IMG/VR virus record: IMGVR_UViG_3300030044_000035
Location: 1 to 45,579 of that record
Reading direction: 5' to 3' (one strand)
Source of the DNA: a virus
DNA: 45,579 nt
The notes beneath the pieces were generated by a model, which worked only from the letters and a program-made list of their open reading frames with translations, made no database searches and was not told the origin of the DNA. Made by a program: the position numbers and the translations under genes. Positions 8,353 to 36,848 of the stretch are shown piece by piece. Each line of letters opens with the position of its first letter. Positions within the stretch are counted from its first letter, which is position 1.

Positions 8353-8543
8353 AAAATCCCCAGTTCCCTTTCCTTGGCCCGATTTCGGCGAAGCAGAGGT
8401 GCCCACGCAATGAAGCTGCCGTCGTCCACCCACACGCCCGTGACCTGAACCTTGCCCTTAGTGAGCAGGGTTAGCTTCACACCGCGTGGTGGCTTGTCGG
8501 TGTAATTGAACCCGGTCGGTTCGGCTGCGAGGTGGTCGATCAT
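8349..8543 (-). CDS. Small hypothetical protein; source of a duplicated segment
   Basis: A 64-residue protein that starts at the ATG overlapping the upstream stop (ATGA, 8540-8543). Its first half (AAEPTGFNYTDKPPRGVKL) is encoded by 8451-8532, a stretch nearly identical to 30066-30147 in the same orientation (80 of 82 positions). The second half has a WxxDGSFIAWAPLLRRNR pattern. No domain recognised. The other copy has lost this second half, so this is the likely intact version. Confidence 0.75.
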   Translation of the reverse strand: MIDHLAAEPTGFNYTDKPPRGVKLTLLTKGKVQVTGVWVDDGSFIAWAPLLRRNRAKERELGIL

Positions 8544-21107: not shown

Positions 21108-21826
21108 CACACACCCCTTTCACAGTGGCCGGTGCCGGTCGGTCCGTAGGGGCACCACTTGCAGGTAAAAATGTTGGGATTTGCAGGGAACTCAGTACAG
21201 TCGGTTAGCGCTCGCGCCTGGCGTTCGATGCCTGGTTTAAATCGCAGCCCCTGGGCACGAGTGAACGATGCCTGGGTCAGATCGTCCTGATCGAGGTACC
21301 AAAGTTCTACCGTTATAAATTCGAGCTTCGGGTAGCGTAGGAATGCGATCAGCTGATAAATCTGCATCTGCTGCATATGGCTGACTTCATTGCCAAACTT
21401 TTTGCCCGTCTTATGGTCCGCAATTACTGCCTCATACTCAGACAGAAAAACGATCACGTCGAGCTTCGCGCGAAGCCAGGCATCAGGAGACCGCCACTCG
21501 ACTGGAACCCATCGACGATCAAACGCCCACTCCTGCTCGATCTCTACTTTCCCATCCGCATAGAGCTGTTTCAGTGAGTCGAACTCGGGGCGGAATTTTG
21601 TCAGTGCCGGAGTAAGCTCGCCTTGCCCTTGCGCATAGTTTTCGGCCTCCAAATGGATGCGGCTGCCGCGTTCATTCGGAAATTCTGTTTGCCCGGGCTT
21701 CAACTCTCGTGGTGGCTCAGGAATCTTTTGCCCGTACTGAAGTTGAGTGCGGAGCTTGCATTGACTGAAGGTCTTGAGCTTTGAGGCTGACCACTGAGGG
21801 ATTGGGACTATCTGGATTGTTTTCAT
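21107..21826 (-). CDS. Cas4/RecB-like PD-(D/E)XK nuclease with Fe-S cysteines
   Basis: A 239-residue protein. The RecB-family core is visible: His58 (GSRIHLEAE), Asp123 (AKLDVIV), Asp137 and Lys139 (ADHKTGK), and a Gln-rich helix (MQQMQIYQL). Cys23 together with Cys222, Cys225 and Cys235 gives the N-C-terminal four-cysteine arrangement of Cas4/AddB-type 4Fe-4S nucleases. Such enzymes resect DNA ends, and here it is coupled to an SNF2 helicase. No cas1/cas2 or CRISPR array is present, so a phage recombination/replication role is inferred. Confidence 0.88.
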   Translation of the reverse strand: MKTIQIVPIPQWSASKLKTFSQCKLRTQLQYGQKIPEPPRELKPGQTEFPNERGSRIHLEAENYAQGQGELTPALTKFRPEFDSLKQLYADGKVEIEQEWAFDRRWVPVEWRSPDAWLRAKLDVIVFLSEYEAVIADHKTGKKFGNEVSHMQQMQIYQLIAFLRYPKLEFITVELWYLDQDDLTQASFTRAQGLRFKPGIERQARALTDCTEFPANPNIFTCKWCPYGPTGTGHCERGV

Positions 21827-22311
21827 ATCGGCGCCGTTGGGTGATATGCTGGTTTGGCGGCGAGGTACGCCGCAGAAGCTTGCTCTGGTGTGTCGAAATA
21901 CCCGAGGACTTTTCCGCAGTCATTCAGGGTGATCCTGGCTTCCCACTTGTTCATGTTCTTTGACCAGCTGACGCCTTTGAACCCAGAGGTGTTATGCGCC
22001 GCAAGCCCTGCGTTATGGCAGTTTTCGGCACGCGTCGCAGCCATTAAATTCTTGATCCGGTTGTTCGAGCGGTTACGGTCCCGATGGTCAACATCGTTCT
22101 TTGGCCATACACCATGAACCCAGAACCAAACGAGCCGGTGGAGCCGGTATTTTTTGCCGGCGATTGATACTTGAAGATAACCCTTACCATCGTCGTAGCC
22201 GGCGATCTCGCCTTTCTTGGCGCGGGCGGAAGGCGTAATGCGCCGGGTCATAACCCCGGTCTCTGGGTCATAATCGAAAAGCTCTCTCACTCTCTGCTGC
22301 GTTAGACTCAT
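21823..22311 (-). CDS. HNH endonuclease with AP2 domain
   Basis: A 162-residue protein. YRLHRLVWFWVHG, DVDHRDRNRSNNRIKNL and ATRAENCHNAG form the HNH nuclease core. SGFKGVSWSKNMNKWEARI and GYFDTPEQASAAY form a C-terminal AP2 DNA-binding domain. This is the usual freestanding homing-endonuclease architecture. The start at 22311 follows GTCTGGAAATCTAAG. Upstream lies a 24-base homopolymer, so the longer frame with a Phe run is not believed. It probably arrived as a mobile gene between the antitoxin-like and nuclease genes. Confidence 0.92.
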   Translation of the reverse strand: MSLTQQRVRELFDYDPETGVMTRRITPSARAKKGEIAGYDDGKGYLQVSIAGKKYRLHRLVWFWVHGVWPKNDVDHRDRNRSNNRIKNLMAATRAENCHNAGLAAHNTSGFKGVSWSKNMNKWEARITLNDCGKVLGYFDTPEQASAAYLAAKPAYHPTAPI

Positions 22312-22326
22312 CTTAGATTTCCAGAC

Positions 22327-22350
22327 AAAAAAAAAAAAAAAAAAAAAAAA
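22327..22350. repeat. A24 homopolymer
   Basis: Twenty-four consecutive A on the plus strand (T24 in the minus-strand leader of the HNH gene, 15 bases before its ATG). Length this extreme is unstable and may vary between virions or be mis-sized by sequencing. Confidence 0.9.
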
Positions 22351-22455
22351 TTCACCTGCTGAATCTCCCTTACAGAAGTTGGTCGAACGGGGTAGCACCC
22401 GCCATTCAGCATGTGAAGCCTTGCTAACAATGTCCGTGGTCGAGCGTTGAATCTA

Positions 22456-22486: not shown

Positions 22487-23194
22487 TTAGACTTCAGAGC
22501 CGAATTCGTCATAAAGCGTCTCATACTGCTTGATCGACTCGTCGATACATTCATCGCTCATTAGGTAGTCATGCTCGGCTTCGAGGCGTCCGTAAATCCA
22601 GTCGGCGAATGATGAGACGTAGTCATCGAGGTCGAATTGTTCGTCGTCGTTATCCGTGCATGTGGCGTAATACCGGCTATTACCGATGATGCTGAAACGG
22701 CTGTATTCAGTCATGGCGTCCTCGCTTGCCACACCTTGCATACGTTGAGCGACACGGGCGACCAGAATGTCTCGAAACAAGGCTTCTCCATCTCTGGCTA
22801 TGCTGAGTAGAAGGGGGTCACTGCATTCTGCCTTGACCTTAGCCTCGCATCCTTGCAGTTGATCAATGTGGAGAGTGCCGGAGTAGCAGCAGCCGTCACC
22901 TTGATTGCAGAAGCCAGAGAAACTGATGTCTGGTTCAGTGTAGGATTTTCCGTTCTTCGGAGCTGATCTATTTGTCCCGACCTCAATACCGATTAATGCG
23001 CCGAGCGTTACAGCGTCCTCATATACATACTCCCACCATTCATAGTCGAGCTGGGTTTCGCGGTACCTACCGCGCACCTTTTCCTTGGCGCGTTCGGAAA
23101 GTTCATCGAATGTGAACTCGGTTTGTTCGACTTCGGCGAGTATGCAATCTGATAGAGCATACGCCACTTCCATTTGCTCCTTAATTCCGCTCAT
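22487..23194 (-). CDS. Phage 'antitoxin of TA stability' family protein
   Basis: A 235-residue protein. TFDELSERAKEKVRGRYRET, DYEWWEYVYEDAVTLGALIG and SFSGFCNQGDGCCYSG are hallmarks of a common phage protein family usually auto-annotated as an antitoxin of a toxin-antitoxin stability system. The true function is unknown and no toxin partner is visible. Its ATG overlaps the TGA of the upstream shifted frame (ATGA), which helps define that gene's real end. Confidence 0.8.
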   Translation of the reverse strand: MSGIKEQMEVAYALSDCILAEVEQTEFTFDELSERAKEKVRGRYRETQLDYEWWEYVYEDAVTLGALIGIEVGTNRSAPKNGKSYTEPDISFSGFCNQGDGCCYSGTLHIDQLQGCEAKVKAECSDPLLLSIARDGEALFRDILVARVAQRMQGVASEDAMTEYSRFSIIGNSRYYATCTDNDDEQFDLDDYVSSFADWIYGRLEAEHDYLMSDECIDESIKQYETLYDEFGSEV

Positions 23195-24005: not shown

Positions 24006-24107
24006 TTAACTACCGCTGCCGTAGCCGTCGCCGTCGCCATCCAACGTCATTAATATCCCGTCGTCTAACCCCAATAGACGACGGGTTAGTTTAACGAGGG
24101 CACACAT
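24006..24107 (-). CDS. Glycine-rich mini-protein A (short copy)
   Basis: A 33-residue ORF that starts directly after the TAA of the VWA gene. The shared N terminus KLTRRLLGLDDGILMTLDGD is followed by a short GDGYGSGS tail. The RRLLGLDD part is encoded by a perfect 11-bp hairpin (24057-24067/24075-24085). The TAA runs into GGAG for the next gene. It is paralogous to 25615-25833 and 26914-27225. No family recognised. Confidence 0.6.
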   Translation of the reverse strand: MCALVKLTRRLLGLDDGILMTLDGDGDGYGSGS

Positions 24108-25205
24108 TTAAATCTCTATTCTTACGGTCTCGCCGAATGCCCCAACATTGTAAGTCGTGCAGCACCAGAGCGTCGGATAATCAGGAGGATCAAAAGAATG
24201 ATCCCCGTACAAGTCCGTCAAGTAGACGAGGCACACCGGACGGATGCCCAGTTCTTCGACCTTTTCAAATACGGGCGAGAACCGCGTGCCACCTCCGCCG
24301 CATGCTTCCAGTTTAAATGGCTCGCCGCGAGCGAAGACCTGTACCCGGTTTACAGCGGCATCACAATAGATGACATGCACGTTCGCCGGTCGCGTTTCAG
24401 CGATGATTCCGTCGCACTCCGCGCTGAATTTTTCCAGTACCTTGTTGCTGATGCTGCCCGATGTATCGATGCCGATCACGATGTCGCCCATGTTCTCGCT
24501 ATACAGGCTGGGCATGTACACGCCATGCACGATCATGTGCCGGTTCGGACGTGCCCAAGAGTAGTCGTCCTTGCTGCGTTCGTTGATGAAGCGGCGCAAG
24601 ACTTCTTTCCAGTCGACCTGTGCGGCCAGCAGGCCATCGATCAGGCGTTCGATTTCTTGTGGTAGCTTGCCCATGATCTTGGCAGCTTCCTTGGCTTGGA
24701 TGGTGGCAACTTTCCAGTCGCGCGCAGCTTCAGCCTTGGCCGCAGGGTCAGGATCGCCTGGGGTCATATTGTCGAGTGGGTCGCTCTGCCCTTCTGGGGT
24801 ATCCGGCAGGAGTGTGTAAATCTCGTCAGCGGATTTACCTTTGAATGCAGGGTTGAGAAGGCCGGTGCCTTCGAAGCTGAAACCGACATCTTCCAGAATC
24901 TGATTGATGGCGTAGTCTGCAGCCTGATTCCATTTACGGTGGTCGCGTTCGGCAAGCCGTCCCATATGATCAAGGACGCAGTGCATGACCTCATGGGCGA
25001 CGACGGCTTTGGTGAGGCCAGCGCTGCACTCGTTCACGAAGTCCGGGTTGTAGCGGATCGTCTTACCGTCCACAGACATGGTCTTTGTGTTTTCGTCTTC
25101 GACGAGGTGCAGGCGCAGAGCCAGCGCACCGAAGAACGGCTGATCGAGGATCAGCGTTGCTCGGGCGCGGGTGAGCTTGGTTTTGGCTTTGGCTTGTTCG
25201 TTCAT
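24108..25205 (-). CDS. VWA-domain protein with putative metallopeptidase domain
   Basis: A 365-residue protein. The N-terminal putative metallopeptidase domain has HEVMHCVLDH at 71-80 (HExxH plus a further His). The C-terminal VWA-like domain has the MIDAS motif DTSGS at 247-251 and a YLTDLYGDH segment. This is the DUF2201-type pairing that is encoded with MoxR AAA+ ATPases, including in N4-like phages (gp24/gp25). With the MoxR and DUF3150 genes upstream it likely forms a metal-dependent chaperone or remodelling complex. The phage substrate is unknown. GGAGAATAAG precedes the ATG. Confidence 0.9.
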   Translation of the reverse strand: MNEQAKAKTKLTRARATLILDQPFFGALALRLHLVEDENTKTMSVDGKTIRYNPDFVNECSAGLTKAVVAHEVMHCVLDHMGRLAERDHRKWNQAADYAINQILEDVGFSFEGTGLLNPAFKGKSADEIYTLLPDTPEGQSDPLDNMTPGDPDPAAKAEAARDWKVATIQAKEAAKIMGKLPQEIERLIDGLLAAQVDWKEVLRRFINERSKDDYSWARPNRHMIVHGVYMPSLYSENMGDIVIGIDTSGSISNKVLEKFSAECDGIIAETRPANVHVIYCDAAVNRVQVFARGEPFKLEACGGGGTRFSPVFEKVEELGIRPVCLVYLTDLYGDHSFDPPDYPTLWCCTTYNVGAFGETVRIEI

Positions 25206-25206
25206 C

Positions 25207-25386
25207 TTATTCTCCGCTTGTGTTTAGGTCGACGTCAATCGAAGTTCCGGTACGGACATCGTACACTGTGAAATAGGTGCATGTCGAGGAAGAGTCGCGC
25301 TGGGCCATCAATGCTACCTCTGCAGCAGCTTCTGGGGAGTCGGCGAAAATATCGATCTCCCAATATACTTTGTAATGTGTATTCAT
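25207..25386 (-). CDS. Small hypothetical protein, 59 residues
   Basis: The ATG overlaps the upstream stop (ATGA). The protein begins MNTHYKVYWEIDIFADSPEA and continues AAAEVALMAQRD, with a beta-strand end (TYFTVYDVRTGTSIDVDL). The HYKVYWEIDxFAxSPEEAAxxA pattern is common among small phage proteins of unknown role. It ends one base before the VWA start region. Confidence 0.75.
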   Translation of the reverse strand: MNTHYKVYWEIDIFADSPEAAAEVALMAQRDSSSTCTYFTVYDVRTGTSIDVDLNTSGE

Positions 25387-25604
25387 TTCGTCATCCTTAT
25401 CATCAATGCCTTGGCAACCAATTCAGTTGCCATTGGCAAGCCTTTAGCGGCTTCTTCCTCTACTCGCTTGATCCACCAGAGCCGCGTTTCGGGGTCCCAG
25501 TGGTTATATGTATTTTTGTTCGATATCCATTTCTTGTTTTCCAGTGCGAGTAGGGTAAGTGCCATATCGTAGTAGTGGGTCTTCGGTAATTCCGTTTTGG
25601 CCAT
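25383..25604 (-). CDS. Small hypothetical protein
   Basis: A 73-residue protein that starts at 25604 behind AAGGAGCAAGAA, directly after the stop of glycine-rich mini-gene B. YYDMALTLLALENKKWISNK and TRLWWIKRVEEEAAKGLPMA suggest a helical protein. Not recognised. Confidence 0.75.
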   Translation of the reverse strand: MAKTELPKTHYYDMALTLLALENKKWISNKNTYNHWDPETRLWWIKRVEEEAAKGLPMATELVAKALMIRMTK

Positions 25605-25614
25605 TTCTTGCTCC

Positions 25615-25833
25615 TTAATTGTCGTAACCTCTACCATGGCCGTCGCCGTCGCCGTAGCCGTTGTTGCCGTCGCCGCCTACGCCGCCGCCGCTGCCGCCGC
25701 CGTCGCCGTAGCCGCTGACGCCGTAGCCGCTGCCGTTGCCGTGGTAGCTGCCGTAGCCGTCGCCATCCAACGTCATTAATATCCCGTCGTCTAGCCCCAA
25801 TAGACGACGGGTTAGTTTAAAGAGGGTATCCAT
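25615..25833 (-). CDS. Glycine-rich mini-protein B
   Basis: A 72-residue protein with an excellent AGGAGG site five bases before the ATG, which makes this the clearest evidence that the glycine-rich frame is translated. FKLTRRLLGLDDGILMTLDG precedes about 45 residues of Gly/Tyr/Asp/Ser repeats (GYG, GDG, GSG). The hairpin 25783-25793/25801-25811 encodes RRLLGLDD. It sits between an 83-residue unknown and the 73-residue gene, and its TAA runs into AAGGAG. Function unknown. Confidence 0.7.
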   Translation of the reverse strand: MDTLFKLTRRLLGLDDGILMTLDGDGYGSYHGNGSGYGVSGYGDGGGSGGGVGGDGNNGYGDGDGHGRGYDN

Positions 25834-25834
25834 C

Positions 25835-26086
25835 TCATCCTCCTAGCCGCATCACCAATGTCTGCATCCGCACCTCGTTGATGAATGGGGTATTCATGCC
25901 GTTCTTCATGCGCCGATAGAAGGCTTTCCGTTGGCTGGTGTTCATCGTCAGAATCTGTGCCGCTTGTGTTGCAAATTGGTCGGTTCCATTGCGCATTCGA
26001 TGGAGGGCATTCTTCATGGCTGTGTAGCCTGGGTCTCTTGTCGGGTCCATATCGGTAAATTCATCAAGTATGATCGGCGATTTCAC
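25835..26086 (-). CDS. Small hypothetical protein, GTG start
   Basis: An 83-residue protein that starts at GTG (26086) behind AAGGGGTGCTGC, overlapping the DUF3150 gene by 23 bp. MKNALHRMRNGTDQFATQAA and MNTSQRKAFYRRMKNGMNTP are basic and helical. Not recognised. It follows DUF3150 and precedes mini-gene B. Confidence 0.65.
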   Translation of the reverse strand: MKSPIILDEFTDMDPTRDPGYTAMKNALHRMRNGTDQFATQAAQILTMNTSQRKAFYRRMKNGMNTPFINEVRMQTLVMRLGG

Positions 26087-26900
26087 GCAGCACCCCTTCT
26101 GCAGCCAGCGCCACGTCGTTGCGCATTCGTGCGCTTTTGCGTAGATAATGTGGCGAAGTTGAGTTGACGACTAAGGACACCTTTTTGCAGACTTCGTTTA
26201 ATGCAGGATCGTTCGTGATATTCAGCTTTGGCAGCATACTGATCAAGTCCTTCACGTTGTCGATGATGCTGTCACGAAAGATTGGCTTGTCCTTGATCAT
26301 CATGGTGTACAGCTTGCCGATTACATCGTTGAGCCGTACCCAGCACTCTTTGACTGCGCCGGCTTGACGTTCCGCTACGGCTTCGTTGATGCTCGCTTTG
26401 ATCTCAGCTAGAGCTTCGTCCCCCACATCGACGCGAAAGTCCTTAGCGTCAGGGACTGGTTGAAATGCCACGCGGATATCAAAGCGGTCGCGTATGTCGC
26501 TGATAGGGGGATAATCGTTGGCATCGTACATGGTGCCCAGGCGCTGCCGAGCATCGGCAACGAGTTGGGGGTAGGAAGCCTCAAATGTACGAGCATAGGA
26601 CGCATATTCATCTTTTAGTTTCCTCATAGTTGCGGTGTAGTCCATGTACGCCTTGGCTGGTAGTAGCCGGTCGCCGTTGTCGCCCCATGGCAAGGTGAGG
26701 GAATAGTGATATTCCCGTACACGCCCTGCATGCTTGGTGAGCGGGTCGAGTGCTGACTTATCGATCAGCAGCTTGTTGTAGCGTCCACCTTCCTGTGCGT
26801 TGTGAGCAGCGTCCACTTCGTTGGAGACAGCGCGGTCGTGCTTGCGCGCTGTCCAAGAGCGAATGTTGAGATTTGCTATCATGGCTTGGTTTTGTAGCAT
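26064..26900 (-). CDS. DUF3150-like protein of the MoxR/VWA module
   Basis: A 278-residue protein starting at 26900 behind AAGGAGAAAGAC. The frame stays open upstream through Ala/Thr codons, but that is a shadow of mini-gene C. LNIRSWTARKHDRAVSNEVD, AHNAQEGGRYNKLLIDKSAL and YHYSLTLPWGDNGDRLLPAK match DUF3150-type phage proteins. A long helical middle and LPKLNITNDPALNEV follow. The family is typically encoded with MoxR ATPase and VWA genes, as here. Role is probably in the same complex; biochemical function unknown. Confidence 0.85.
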   Translation of the reverse strand: MLQNQAMIANLNIRSWTARKHDRAVSNEVDAAHNAQEGGRYNKLLIDKSALDPLTKHAGRVREYHYSLTLPWGDNGDRLLPAKAYMDYTATMRKLKDEYASYARTFEASYPQLVADARQRLGTMYDANDYPPISDIRDRFDIRVAFQPVPDAKDFRVDVGDEALAEIKASINEAVAERQAGAVKECWVRLNDVIGKLYTMMIKDKPIFRDSIIDNVKDLISMLPKLNITNDPALNEVCKKVSLVVNSTSPHYLRKSARMRNDVALAAEGVLREIADHT

Positions 26901-26913
26901 GTCTTTCTCCTTA

Positions 26914-27225
26914 TTAGTTGCCGTAGCCGTCGCCGCTGCTGCCGCCGCCGTCGCCGTCGCCGTCGCCGCTGCCGTAGCCGTCGCCGTCGCCGCCGCCGCC
27001 GTAGCCGTAGCCGTTGCCGTAGCCGCTGCCGCCGCTGCCGTAGCCGTATCCGATGTCGCTGCCGCCGCCGTAGCCGTCGCCGTCGCCGCCGCCGCCGTAG
27101 CCGTAGCCGTTGCCGTAGCCGCTGCCGCCGCTACCGTAGCCGTCGCCATCCAACGTCATTAATAGACCGTCGTCTAACCCTAATAGACGACGGGTTAGCA
27201 AGGTCAGACTAAGTGGGGCTTCCAT
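26914..27225 (-). CDS. Glycine-rich mini-protein C (long copy)
   Basis: A 103-residue protein from the ATG at 27225, which lies inside the end of the upstream gene. No clear Shine-Dalgarno, so the start is uncertain. LTRRLLGLDDGLLMTLDGDG is followed by about 70 residues of GYG/GSG/GDG repeats. These include a near-perfect 75-bp direct repeat (26971-27045 and 27067-27141, one mismatch). The hairpin 27167-27176/27184-27193 encodes the RRLLGLDD part. Its TAA-TAA runs into the DUF3150 ribosome site. Confidence 0.6.
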   Translation of the reverse strand: MEAPLSLTLLTRRLLGLDDGLLMTLDGDGYGSGGSGYGNGYGYGGGGDGDGYGGGSDIGYGYGSGGSGYGNGYGYGGGGDGDGYGSGDGDGDGGGSSGDGYGN

Positions 27226-27608
27226 TTTGACTGGTTGCAATCAACAGTAAATAGCACAGCCCGCAATAGGGGGCGAACTGTACAGATCGCGTCGAGAACT
27301 GTTTCTTTCGTTGGCCCGTTCTTCAGTTCGCCAAGTCCATTCGTCGTTCCCCACTTACGGATACAACGGGCTTTGTCGATGTACATTTCAGTCTCGGTCT
27401 GAGTGACATAGCCGACGAAGACAAAGCCACGGTCGAGTATGACGATTTTGATTTCAGGTTCGACATTCGAGATTGCAGTTGTGTGGGTTATCCCAGCATT
27501 CCATGCGCTACGTGCCTCTTCGATAATCTCATCGCTGTACTGCTCTCCGTGCCTTCCGTATTTCTTATCGAAGTAGGCTTCAAATGCTTTGTCGTGTTGA
27601 TTACTCAT
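27204..27608 (-). CDS. Hypothetical protein, DUF6948-like C terminus
   Basis: A 134-residue protein. The helical N terminus (KKYGRHGEQYSDEIIEEARS, AWNAGI) resembles small phage ead/Ea-type leaders. The C-terminal domain (VFVGYVTQTETEMYIDKARC, IRKWGTTNGLGELKNGPTKE) matches a phage family where an IRxWGT...GLGEL...GP core recurs (DUF6948-like). AAAGGAAATTGAA precedes the ATG. Function unknown. Confidence 0.7.
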   Translation of the reverse strand: MSNQHDKAFEAYFDKKYGRHGEQYSDEIIEEARSAWNAGITHTTAISNVEPEIKIVILDRGFVFVGYVTQTETEMYIDKARCIRKWGTTNGLGELKNGPTKETVLDAICTVRPLLRAVLFTVDCNQSKWKPHLV

Positions 27609-27609
27609 T

Positions 27610-27864
27610 TCAATTTCCTTTCATTCGTTGTGCCATGAACTCGGCCAAAATTCCGAGTGCGACGGCATCGCCTTTATTGGCTAGTTTCTGGCAGTGGTCT
27701 AAACTGCGCCTGTCGACCGAGTTCATGGCGTTCGTTACTTCTGTAAAGTGGTGCAGAGTTGCTGCCCATGCTCGCTTCTGCGCTTCGGATTCGAAGGGCT
27801 GCGGGCCGGGGAGTGGTCGGTTTAGGTTGATCACATCGCGATTGATGCGTTGTTGATGCCCCAT
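27610..27864 (-). CDS. Small hypothetical protein
   Basis: An 84-residue protein that starts inside the 3' end of the MoxR gene (34-bp overlap). PFESEAQKRAWAATLHHFTE and HCQKLANKGDAVALGILAEF are helical. Not recognised. A GTG closer to the MoxR stop is an alternative start. Confidence 0.65.
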   Translation of the reverse strand: MGHQQRINRDVINLNRPLPGPQPFESEAQKRAWAATLHHFTEVTNAMNSVDRRSLDHCQKLANKGDAVALGILAEFMAQRMKGN

Positions 27865-28811
27865 TTCACAAACGCCTTCGTCGCCGAAATCGTATTGTTC
27901 TGCCGGATGGCGTCACGCACGGTCACGACCTGGAACTCGATAGGCATGCGCTCTACGTAGATCATCATTCGGTCGAATGTGTCTTTCTTAGATTTCGCGC
28001 CCAGCGCAGAGCTGAGGGCGTAAAGAGTCGCCGGGGAAGTTGGTACTGGTACGCTGTCCGGGTTTAGCATGATACTGTCGATGCTGGGCAGGTCACGATA
28101 CACCTGCAGGAACGCCACGAACTCACTGGCTGCACCTTCTCCGACCGTACCTTTCAGCACTTCATACTCAGTGTCGCGGTCCATGCTGGAGCCGATATCG
28201 CTGCTCACGAACGTCCAACTGCGTGGGTTCGGCGAGCTGCGCTGTGACGGGTCAAACGCGTGCAGCAGGTTTGGCCGGAAGCGGATAAATCCGATCAACT
28301 CCGTCGGCATATTGTTCTCCAGCGCCCAGGTGCTCCAGTCATCCAGACTGACATCCAGATCGAGGTGGGTGAAGCGTAGGGCGAGCGCTGATGGCATGCG
28401 GTTGACGACTGCACGATCTGACTCGCGGTTGCCGGCACCGATGATGCGCCAGCCTCCTGGTAGGGTGTAGTCGCCAATCTTGCCGGTGAGGGTCAGCTGC
28501 ATGGCCGCTGCCTGTGTGGCCGGCGCTGCGCTATTCAACTCGTCCAGGAACAGGATGCCCTTGCCTTTGGTGGGCAGTTCCCCGTCGCGGAAGAACTTCA
28601 TGGTCTTCGTGGTGGTGTCCGGCATCGGGAAGCCCTTGATGTCGGTCGGGTCGCGCAGGGCCATACGGAAGTCGATCAGATCGAGTTTGTCTTCCTTGGC
28701 GATGGATGCCACGATGTCACTCTTGCCGACACCTGGGGGTCCCCAGATGAAGGCAGCGCGGCGTTTGGACATCAAGTGGCGTAAAGCGGTTTTAAGCTGG
28801 GTAGGGCGCAT
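27831..28811 (-). CDS. MoxR-family AAA+ ATPase
   Basis: A 326-residue protein. Walker A GPPGVGKS is at 24-31, Walker B ILFLDELN (Asp90, Glu91) follows, and GAGNRESDRAVVNRMPSALA gives sensor 1 and the Arg finger. It belongs to the MoxR/AAA_5 group that works with VWA proteins as a metal-dependent remodelling chaperone. N4-like phages carry an equivalent pair (gp24/25). GGAGATTGCC precedes the ATG. It is the first large gene downstream of the operator-controlled promoter at 29084, so it is probably expressed early. Confidence 0.93.
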   Translation of the reverse strand: MRPTQLKTALRHLMSKRRAAFIWGPPGVGKSDIVASIAKEDKLDLIDFRMALRDPTDIKGFPMPDTTTKTMKFFRDGELPTKGKGILFLDELNSAAPATQAAAMQLTLTGKIGDYTLPGGWRIIGAGNRESDRAVVNRMPSALALRFTHLDLDVSLDDWSTWALENNMPTELIGFIRFRPNLLHAFDPSQRSSPNPRSWTFVSSDIGSSMDRDTEYEVLKGTVGEGAASEFVAFLQVYRDLPSIDSIMLNPDSVPVPTSPATLYALSSALGAKSKKDTFDRMMIYVERMPIEFQVVTVRDAIRQNNTISATKAFVKWGINNASIAM

Positions 28812-29990: not shown

Positions 29991-30042
29991 TTTAATTTCC
30001 TTTGGTTGTTGCCAGCAGCTTGATTGCTTCGGCAATTTGTTC

Positions 30043-30147
30043 GTTGTTTCGATCCTGCGGTGGCCCTTGCCCTTAGTGAGCAGGGTTAGCTTCACACCGC
30101 GTGGTGGCTTGTCGATGTAATTGAACCCGGTCGGTTCGGCCGCGAGG
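30043..30147. repeat. Chimeric duplicated segment
   Basis: 30043-30065 is a 23-bp exact copy of 30893-30915 (the LGHRRIETT codons of the primase-helicase). It is joined directly to 30066-30147, which matches 8451-8532 at 80 of 82 positions (inside the 64-residue gene). Both are in the same orientation as their sources. No functional start or complete gene remains, so it looks like a rearrangement scar between two genes. Confidence 0.8.
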
Positions 30148-35984: not shown

Positions 35985-36036
35985 GATGATTCTCCTGAGT
36001 GATTGAATGATAGGGAACAACACAAAAGCAAAAAGA

Positions 36037-36065
36037 GCAAGGACGCAGCCTTACCGCGTCCTTGC
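36037..36065 (-). terminator. Intergenic hairpin H1
   Basis: A 10-bp perfect stem (GCAAGGACGC/GCGTCCTTGC) with a 9-base loop, followed on the minus strand by TCTTTTTGCTTTTGTG. It is part of a 48-bp exact repeat (36020-36067 and 36248-36295). It lies between two small genes and could attenuate or terminate transcription. Confidence 0.7.
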
Positions 36066-36070
36066 AGGGT

Positions 36071-36226: not shown

Positions 36227-36264
36227 GTTCGTTCTCCTAGGTAATGAACACAAAAGCAAAAAGA

Positions 36265-36293
36265 GCAAGGACGCAGCCTTACCGCGTCCTTGC
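36265..36293 (-). terminator. Intergenic hairpin H2
   Basis: Identical in stem, loop and T-rich tail to H1. It begins 4 bp after the stop of the gene at 36298 and precedes the 51-residue gene. Confidence 0.7.
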
Positions 36294-36297
36294 AGAA

Positions 36298-36543: not shown

Positions 36544-36589
36544 GACTATCTCCTTGGTTAATGTATAGACAACACCAAGGCAGACAGAC

Positions 36590-36616
36590 CAAGGACACAG
36601 CCTCACCGTGTCCTTG
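36590..36616 (-). other. Intergenic hairpin H0
   Basis: A 9-bp stem (CAAGGACAC/GTGTCCTTG) with a 9-base loop (AGCCTCACC) related to H1 and H2 (loop AGCCTTACC). It lies in the leader of the 81-residue gene and lacks a strong U-tract, so it may be a leader structure rather than a terminator. Confidence 0.6.
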
Positions 36617-36848
36617 TGGTTGGATGTGTGGTGGCGAGCGCCAAGAACTCGGAGCGGGGTTCGGAATGCTTGGAGTTCCTTGCTGCGTGGCCGGGGTAAA
36701 AGAGACTCCTTATCCGGGCGCTGGGTGCGGAAACCGAAGTGGGGGCGGCTGATGACGAGGGGTAGGTGAGGGACCCAGACCGACGTAACCCAGAAATTTT
36801 CATAAAAATTTTTCTGAAAAGATTTACGATCTAAGTTAGACTCGCGTG
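36617..36848. other. Divergent intergenic region
   Basis: A 232-bp gap between the early and late arms. The left two thirds are GC-rich with no clear motif. The right third (36794-36841) is AT-rich (ATAAAAATTTTTCTGAAAAG) and holds the operator-like site at 36831. Likely contains promoters for one or both arms, and a pac or cos site is possible because the small terminase starts here. No -35/-10 pair is convincing. Confidence 0.5.
36831..36842. promoter_or_regulatory. Second operator-like site
   Basis: ATCTAAGTTAGA is an exact 12-bp match to the centre of the 21-bp palindrome at 29085-29105 (core TCTAA-G-TTAGA is symmetric). It ends six bases before the small terminase start codon, so binding would affect late-gene expression. 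Confidence 0.5.

Follow-up and report, generated by a model that had tools for sequence, protein, structure and literature searches.

A phage gene pair combining a DUF6948-family protein of predicted Sm-like fold with separately encoded Gly-x tails

Three Gly-x genes and an overlapping upstream partner

The stretch analyzed here, an IMG/VR virus record (IMGVR_UViG_3300030044_000035) with a length of 45,579 bases, is referred to throughout as the window. It carries three small genes with repetitive glycine-rich tails (Gly-x; mini-genes A, B and C), the first of which overlaps the end of an upstream gene that belongs, by profile comparison, to the DUF6948 family. Retrieved stretches that were compared with the window are given L-numbers as labels (L021, L046 and so on). 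The genes concerned are as follows.

27204..27608, minus strand: diverged DUF6948-family gene, 134 amino acids, with an N-terminal helical extension and a predicted Sm-like domain (residues ~51–133)
26914..27225, minus strand: mini-gene A, 103 amino acids from the ATG at 27225, with head LTRRLLGLDDGLLMTLDG and a Gly-x tail of ~80 residues
25615..25833, minus strand: mini-gene B, 72 amino acids, with an AGGAGG ribosome site; a paralog found only in the window phage
24006..24107, minus strand: mini-gene C, 33 amino acids, with the shortest tail; its ATG directly follows the stop of the VWA gene

A preliminary description of this DNA had reported three minus-strand open reading frames (ORFs; 103, 72 and 33 codons) with a common head and Gly-rich tails, placing A before the DUF3150 gene, B between genes of 83 and 73 residues, and C directly after the VWA gene, all of which was borne out by the sequence. 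The ribosome sites that it had pointed out were also present: AGGAGG lies 5 nt upstream of the ATG of B, and the stops of A, B and C each merge into the TAAGGAG of the following gene, with the 3′ end of A located at the Shine-Dalgarno (SD) sequence of the DUF3150 gene. It had further stated that it knew of no described family of this form, and none of the three proteins matched a family in Pfam or PHROGs. All three heads end in MTLDG and share a 54-nt core (93–98% identity among the copies), while the tails run to ~80 residues in A, ~50 in B and ~12 in C. What the description had missed, having the form of the genes right, was the constant partner: the first 22 nt of A fall within the 3′ end of 27204..27608, such that a DUF6948-family gene is followed by a Gly-x gene that overlaps it.

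Coding status and close relatives

Relatives of the window phage were found through a search with the VWA gene and a DNA pattern for the head peptide. Three related phages or prophages of Oxalobacteraceae type (L021, L022 and L031) also carry the head peptide, KLTRRLLGLxDGxLxTLDG, at the positions of A and C. There are two mini-gene copies in the Herminiimonas sp. CN prophage (L021/L032), four in L022 and two in a Janthinobacterium metagenome-assembled genome (L031). In all three of these relatives, mini-genes likewise sit at the A position, where the 27204-like gene ends and DUF3150 starts, and at the C position, between VWA and the gene at 22487–23194; the B position is private to the window phage. 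Across 18 head codons, the window phage differs from its relatives by 8–13 synonymous and 2–3 non-synonymous changes. As the head is kept with mostly synonymous changes, mini-genes A, B and C are, judging from this sequence comparison, genuine small protein-coding genes. Three of the four tails in L022 have no hexamer repeat at the DNA level and are still Gly-rich. An exact search of IMG/VR with the core matched only the same phage in other contigs or samples (~99.98% identical), and the head-peptide DNA pattern matched only two viral relatives and two prophages. A head profile run against 394 host-family genomes gave strong matches only in the two known prophages, with the remainder being near-threshold and inside long ORFs.

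A DUF6948-family gene as the constant partner

PF22253 (DUF6948) was the most frequent Pfam family among 76 larger neighbors of Gly-x genes, with six members, and no other family had more than one. The window protein itself scores under the Pfam cut-off for this family (E=0.07, 13.7 bits; cut-off 27), and many upstream partners score far above it (E up to 1.8e-31). An iterative profile seeded solely with the window gene 27204..27608 and its L021 homolog found 99 genes, with none in 65 control loci and only one locus (L297) represented among 80 VWA loci. Because PF22253-matching proteins are among those that this profile gathers, the window protein was assigned to the DUF6948 family as a diverged member. 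Against a profile of 52 family members, of which it is one, it scored E=5.2e-34. Pfam gives no function for PF22253.

The pairing was assessed in both directions. Among the matches listed, 95 Gly-x loci had at least 500 nt of upstream sequence and could be tested. In 75/95 of these, DUF6948 lay directly upstream, with its stop between −60 and 350 nt from the Gly-x run (median 26); seven had DUF6948 elsewhere in the stretch, and 13 had none, of which four were Gly-x runs inside other proteins. None of 65 random stretches had DUF6948 (Fisher 4e-32 versus the Gly-x loci, with contigs that are not independent). In reverse, 80 IMG/VR loci were retrieved by DUF6948 similarity: 75 had a Gly-x gene just downstream, two had none and three ended too early, giving 75/77 informative loci with a Gly-x gene directly downstream. 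These 80 include four from the window phage and its relatives as well as some near-duplicate contigs, so the counts are of contigs and not of lineages. All of the reference phages fetched by DUF6948 similarity (7/7) had a Gly-x gene downstream, and the nearest Gly-x start codon precedes the DUF6948 stop in 62/73 loci. In L046, the two are naturally fused, with DUF6948 (PF22253 E=1.1e-22) and a Gly-x tail in one chain. A DUF6948 profile matched only once among 398 Pseudomonadota genomes, in the Herminiimonas prophage. A search of 369 genomes with PF22253 returned no match, but as its controls likewise returned none, it has no bearing on absence.

Overall, DUF6948 and Gly-x make up a gene pair that is widespread in phages and seems not to have been described before, with the coding status, the pairing, the gene order, the overlap and one natural fusion all observed. 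Neither DUF6948 nor this gene pair was mentioned in the non-subscription literature searched, which was also covered for phage Sm-like proteins with Gly-rich partners.

The Gly-x tail class across phages

Tails of this class abound in phages: scanning viral sequences for (GGCNAC)6 yielded at least 120 stretches. Among the matches listed, the Gly-x genes are small, and their products have variable heads and tails of the form G-[Y/D/N/S] (x being Tyr 0.38, Asp 0.24, Asn 0.16 and Ser 0.14); such genes are present in reference phages of Rheinheimera, Rhodobacter, Pectobacterium, Vibrio, Eggerthella, Iodobacter and Chlorobiaceae. The Gly codon is GGC, GGG or GGT depending on the phage, with the dipeptide pattern kept, and this survival through codon change points to selection on the peptide together with repeat expansion within the gene. 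A TLD-like motif ends about half of the heads (38/73). The mean charge is +1.2 for the DUF6948 region and −9.3 for the tail, which has ~13 Tyr. A literature search with the repeat motif returned nothing relevant.

Other arrangements of these tails were also seen. Two phage stretches (L061 and L084) have a DUF7666 domain with a Gly-x tail; the tail is of the same type as in the DUF6948-paired proteins, but the folded head is large, and no DUF6948 neighbor was detected in the L084 stretch. In eight stretches (L041, L050, L063, L068, L087, L090, L126 and L127), Gly-x tails are carried on a common head with the motif DxxxxGACxDGV and no head-specific Pfam match. In L035, four Gly-x genes that share the repeated start MKEKHNM(N/S)N lie in tandem, and DUF6948 and MoxR come after them. 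In two human fecal phages (L317 and L320), a Gly-x run directly after the DUF6948 gene lies within a larger protein that has a conserved C-terminal domain (FAHGETLxEA...LTGSCxxGR).

Predicted fold of the DUF6948 family

The AlphaFold2 model of the window protein has a pLDDT (predicted local distance difference test) of ~97 over the domain, and the AlphaFold model of the 86-residue L045 protein has a mean pLDDT of 92.8 and a predicted template-modeling score (pTM) of 0.82. Both predicted models are small five-stranded Sm barrels. When these were compared with the PDB using Foldseek, Sm/LSm chains dominated the top 50 for each (for the window protein, nearly the whole list), led by 3BY7 (TMt 0.70 and 0.66), a metagenomic Sm-like protein that is a Global Ocean Sampling homolog of a hypothetical viral gene product (PMC2530865). 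Like DUF6948, 3BY7 is a viral gene product with a small Sm/LSm barrel (predicted in the case of DUF6948), but it has 16–17% identity and belongs to a different sequence family. The top matches in BFVD were DUF6948-family proteins (best 40% identity, TMt 0.83), with cyanophage proteins named Sm-like at weaker E. 3BY7 is not known to have a Gly-x partner. The DUF6948 family is thus predicted to adopt the Sm/LSm (Hfq) fold; as this is a fold match without a sequence match, we refer to it as Sm-like by predicted fold and not as a member of Hfq.

The neighboring module and the stem-loops

The mini-genes of the window are set among the genes of a MoxR/DUF3150/VWA module, which are context outside the DUF6948–Gly-x cassette.

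27831..28811, minus strand: MoxR-type AAA ATPase (phrog_1297, E=1.6e-96; AAA)
26064..26900, minus strand: DUF3150 gene (PF11348, E=5.6e-4, below the cut-off)
24108..25205, minus strand: DUF2201 metallopeptidase-like/VWA gene (PF13203, E=4.1e-50; PF09967, E=3.3e-25)

Phage DUF2201/VWA proteins are labeled HNH endonuclease by PHROGs (phrog_1314) and GenBank, and their Pfam domains are metallopeptidase-like and VWA. Association with the module was evaluated against random viral stretches or contigs, drawn with a random 14-mer control, and consistent co-encoding was not found. At the contig level, VWA carriage was equal (3/50 contigs with Gly-x genes and 3/50 random viral contigs). Divergent module genes were present in 7/120 Gly-x stretches among the matches listed, several of them directly adjacent, compared with 0/65 random stretches (p=0.10). 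The preliminary description had proposed looking for the motif beside MoxR/VWA genes, and such genes do occur beside divergent module genes in a few unrelated phages. Conversely, mini-genes were present at 1/80 VWA loci and absent at the other 79; the exception, L297, has three around MoxR, with a different head that again ends in TLD. More distant relatives of the window phage (L023–L027) have the module without mini-genes.

Each head in the window also contains a stem-loop (CCCGTCGTCTA, 7 nt, TAGACGACGGG), with a perfect match in both B and C and one base pair fewer in A.

27167..27194, minus strand: stem-loop in the head of A, 10-bp stem and 7-nt loop, window-specific
25783..25811, minus strand: stem-loop in the head of B, 11-bp stem, window-specific
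24057..24085, minus strand: stem-loop in the head of C, 11-bp stem, window-specific

Zero such stem-loops are expected in shuffled sequence. However, the relatives of the window phage retain the head peptide but not the 11-bp stem, and the hairpin is therefore a feature of the window phage and not a conserved element. On this basis, an RNA hairpin was rejected as the functional element.

Other features of the window

An 83-nt direct repeat (98% identical) occurs at 8450–8532 and 30065–30147, 21.6 kb apart, and a 26-nt repeat at 30040/30890 adjoins one of its copies. Three copies of a terminator-like 49-nt element with a hairpin (CAAGGACGC...GCGTCCTTG) lie at 36019–36067, 36247–36295 and 36571–36619. 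A run of some two dozen A residues at 22327–22350 (T in the coding direction, translated as poly-Phe) falls at the 5′ end of the HNH/AP2 gene 21823–22398, possibly a matter of slippage or assembly.

Discussion

Sm proteins with Gly-rich tails are already known, and a two-gene phage version, as proposed here, would be new. We tentatively favor, at a little short of an even chance, reading the cassette as a two-gene Hfq-like RNA-binding or RNA-chaperone system, with an Sm-like core and a separate tail whose gene is present in three copies in the window. Gene 1 (27204..27608) would encode a small Sm/LSm-fold protein, probably an oligomeric ring, that binds RNA. Gene 2, translationally coupled to it, would supply an acidic, low-complexity Gly-[Tyr/Asp/Asn/Ser] tail preceded by a short head with a TLDG-like motif at its end. 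The head would dock the tail onto the Sm-like protein, where the tail may act like the disordered C-terminal domain of Hfq by competing with RNA, promoting release or keeping complexes condensed. In the window phage, duplication of the tail gene within the early operon would have produced copies B and C, yielding three tail lengths. We infer the oligomer, the RNA binding, the docking of the tail and a role for the pair in infection.

This reading draws on Hfq, which has a basic Sm core and an acidic disordered tail that competes with RNA and autoregulates RNA binding (PMC5606850). The closest likeness is to Acinetobacter Hfq, in which an Sm core is followed by a long C-terminal domain of GGFGGQ repeats, with the Gly-rich repeat tail being needed for function (PMC11617691). 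Shared features are the Sm-type fold (predicted for DUF6948) and a long, Gly-rich, repetitive, acidic and disordered tail, and L046 has the same fused layout. In contrast to Acinetobacter Hfq, the phage core and tail are nearly always encoded separately, no sequence relation was detected, the repeats are G-x dipeptides with Tyr, Asp, Asn or Ser, and nearly all cases are in phages. The acidic disordered tail that Hfq carries on the same chain is encoded apart from the core in the window and fused to it only in L046.

Several observations weigh against an Hfq-like role. The Pfam scan gave DUF6948 only, with no Hfq/LSM sequence match, and a PDB profile search returned no Sm chain. The Foldseek probability is ~1, but the E-values are modest (only 3e-3 to 0.1, with TM 0.5–0.7), and Sm barrels also occur in proteins that do not bind RNA. 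Docking through the head is a guess, and head sequences differ greatly between phages. In addition, copies B and C are not adjacent to a DUF6948 gene, and no DUF6948 neighbor was detected for about nine Gly-x genes that look genuine.

Other functions can be considered for the same pair. The Gly-x protein might self-assemble, in the manner of silk- or FUS-like stickers and spacers, with DUF6948 anchoring the resulting condensate or fiber to a non-RNA cargo. The Tyr/Asp/Asn/Ser composition suits this, as does the retention of the dipeptide across Gly codons, by which the peptide is under selection, and the C-terminal region of Hfq can form amyloid-like filaments (PMC10590398); however, copy C, with ~12 tail residues, is too short for assembly alone, and we regard this possibility as unlikely. 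A different proposal is that a DUF6948 monomer binds host Rho (or RNA polymerase) in early infection, with the Gly-x protein as its regulator or stabilizer. Phage early operons often need anti-termination, and many cassettes adjoin replication or recombination genes. Rof (YaeO), a small Sm-like protein, as DUF6948 is predicted to be, acts in transcription control and inhibits Rho through binding and not via an RNA-chaperone ring (PMC11018626). Rof has no known Gly-x partner, though, and no sequence link to it was seen in the Pfam scan of DUF6948 proteins. The near-constant downstream Gly-x gene would also be left unexplained, and we regard a Rof-like anti-terminator as about as unlikely as a condensate.

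The roles suggested in the preliminary description fare less well. A flexible scaffold or adaptor for the MoxR/DUF3150/VWA chaperone would account for L297 and for the 7/120 listed Gly-x stretches that hold divergent module genes, but adjacency in a few cases agrees fully with both residing in early operons. We dropped this reading as very improbable because VWA carriage is equal to that of random contigs, 79/80 VWA loci have no such genes, and the more distant relatives have the module without them. Alternatively, the copies could be small repeats of a mobile or selfish kind, or hairpin leaders that control the gene behind them, with translation being incidental; in favor of this are the near-identical copies, the perfect stem-loops of the window phage and the stops that all abut the next SD. 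Against a leader, the stem is absent in relatives that retain the peptide; against a mobile repeat, A and C keep fixed positions in four phages. The dipeptide pattern also outlasts codon change, and we consider either version hardly credible.

If the Hfq-like reading is correct, phages would bring their own Sm-type RNA chaperone. With less assurance, we propose more generally that phages with hosts as distant as Pseudomonadota, Chlorobiaceae and Eggerthella may carry a split Hfq, in which an RNA-binding Sm-like core is accompanied by a separately translated, length-variable, acidic Gly-Tyr regulatory tail, whose dosage and length evolve independently of the core. Many short phage ORFs annotated as hypothetical protein, "lamprin" or "adsorption protein" would then gain a definite partner and a testable function, and experiments in which the tail is added, removed or swapped in trans could address the long-debated role of the disordered Hfq tail.

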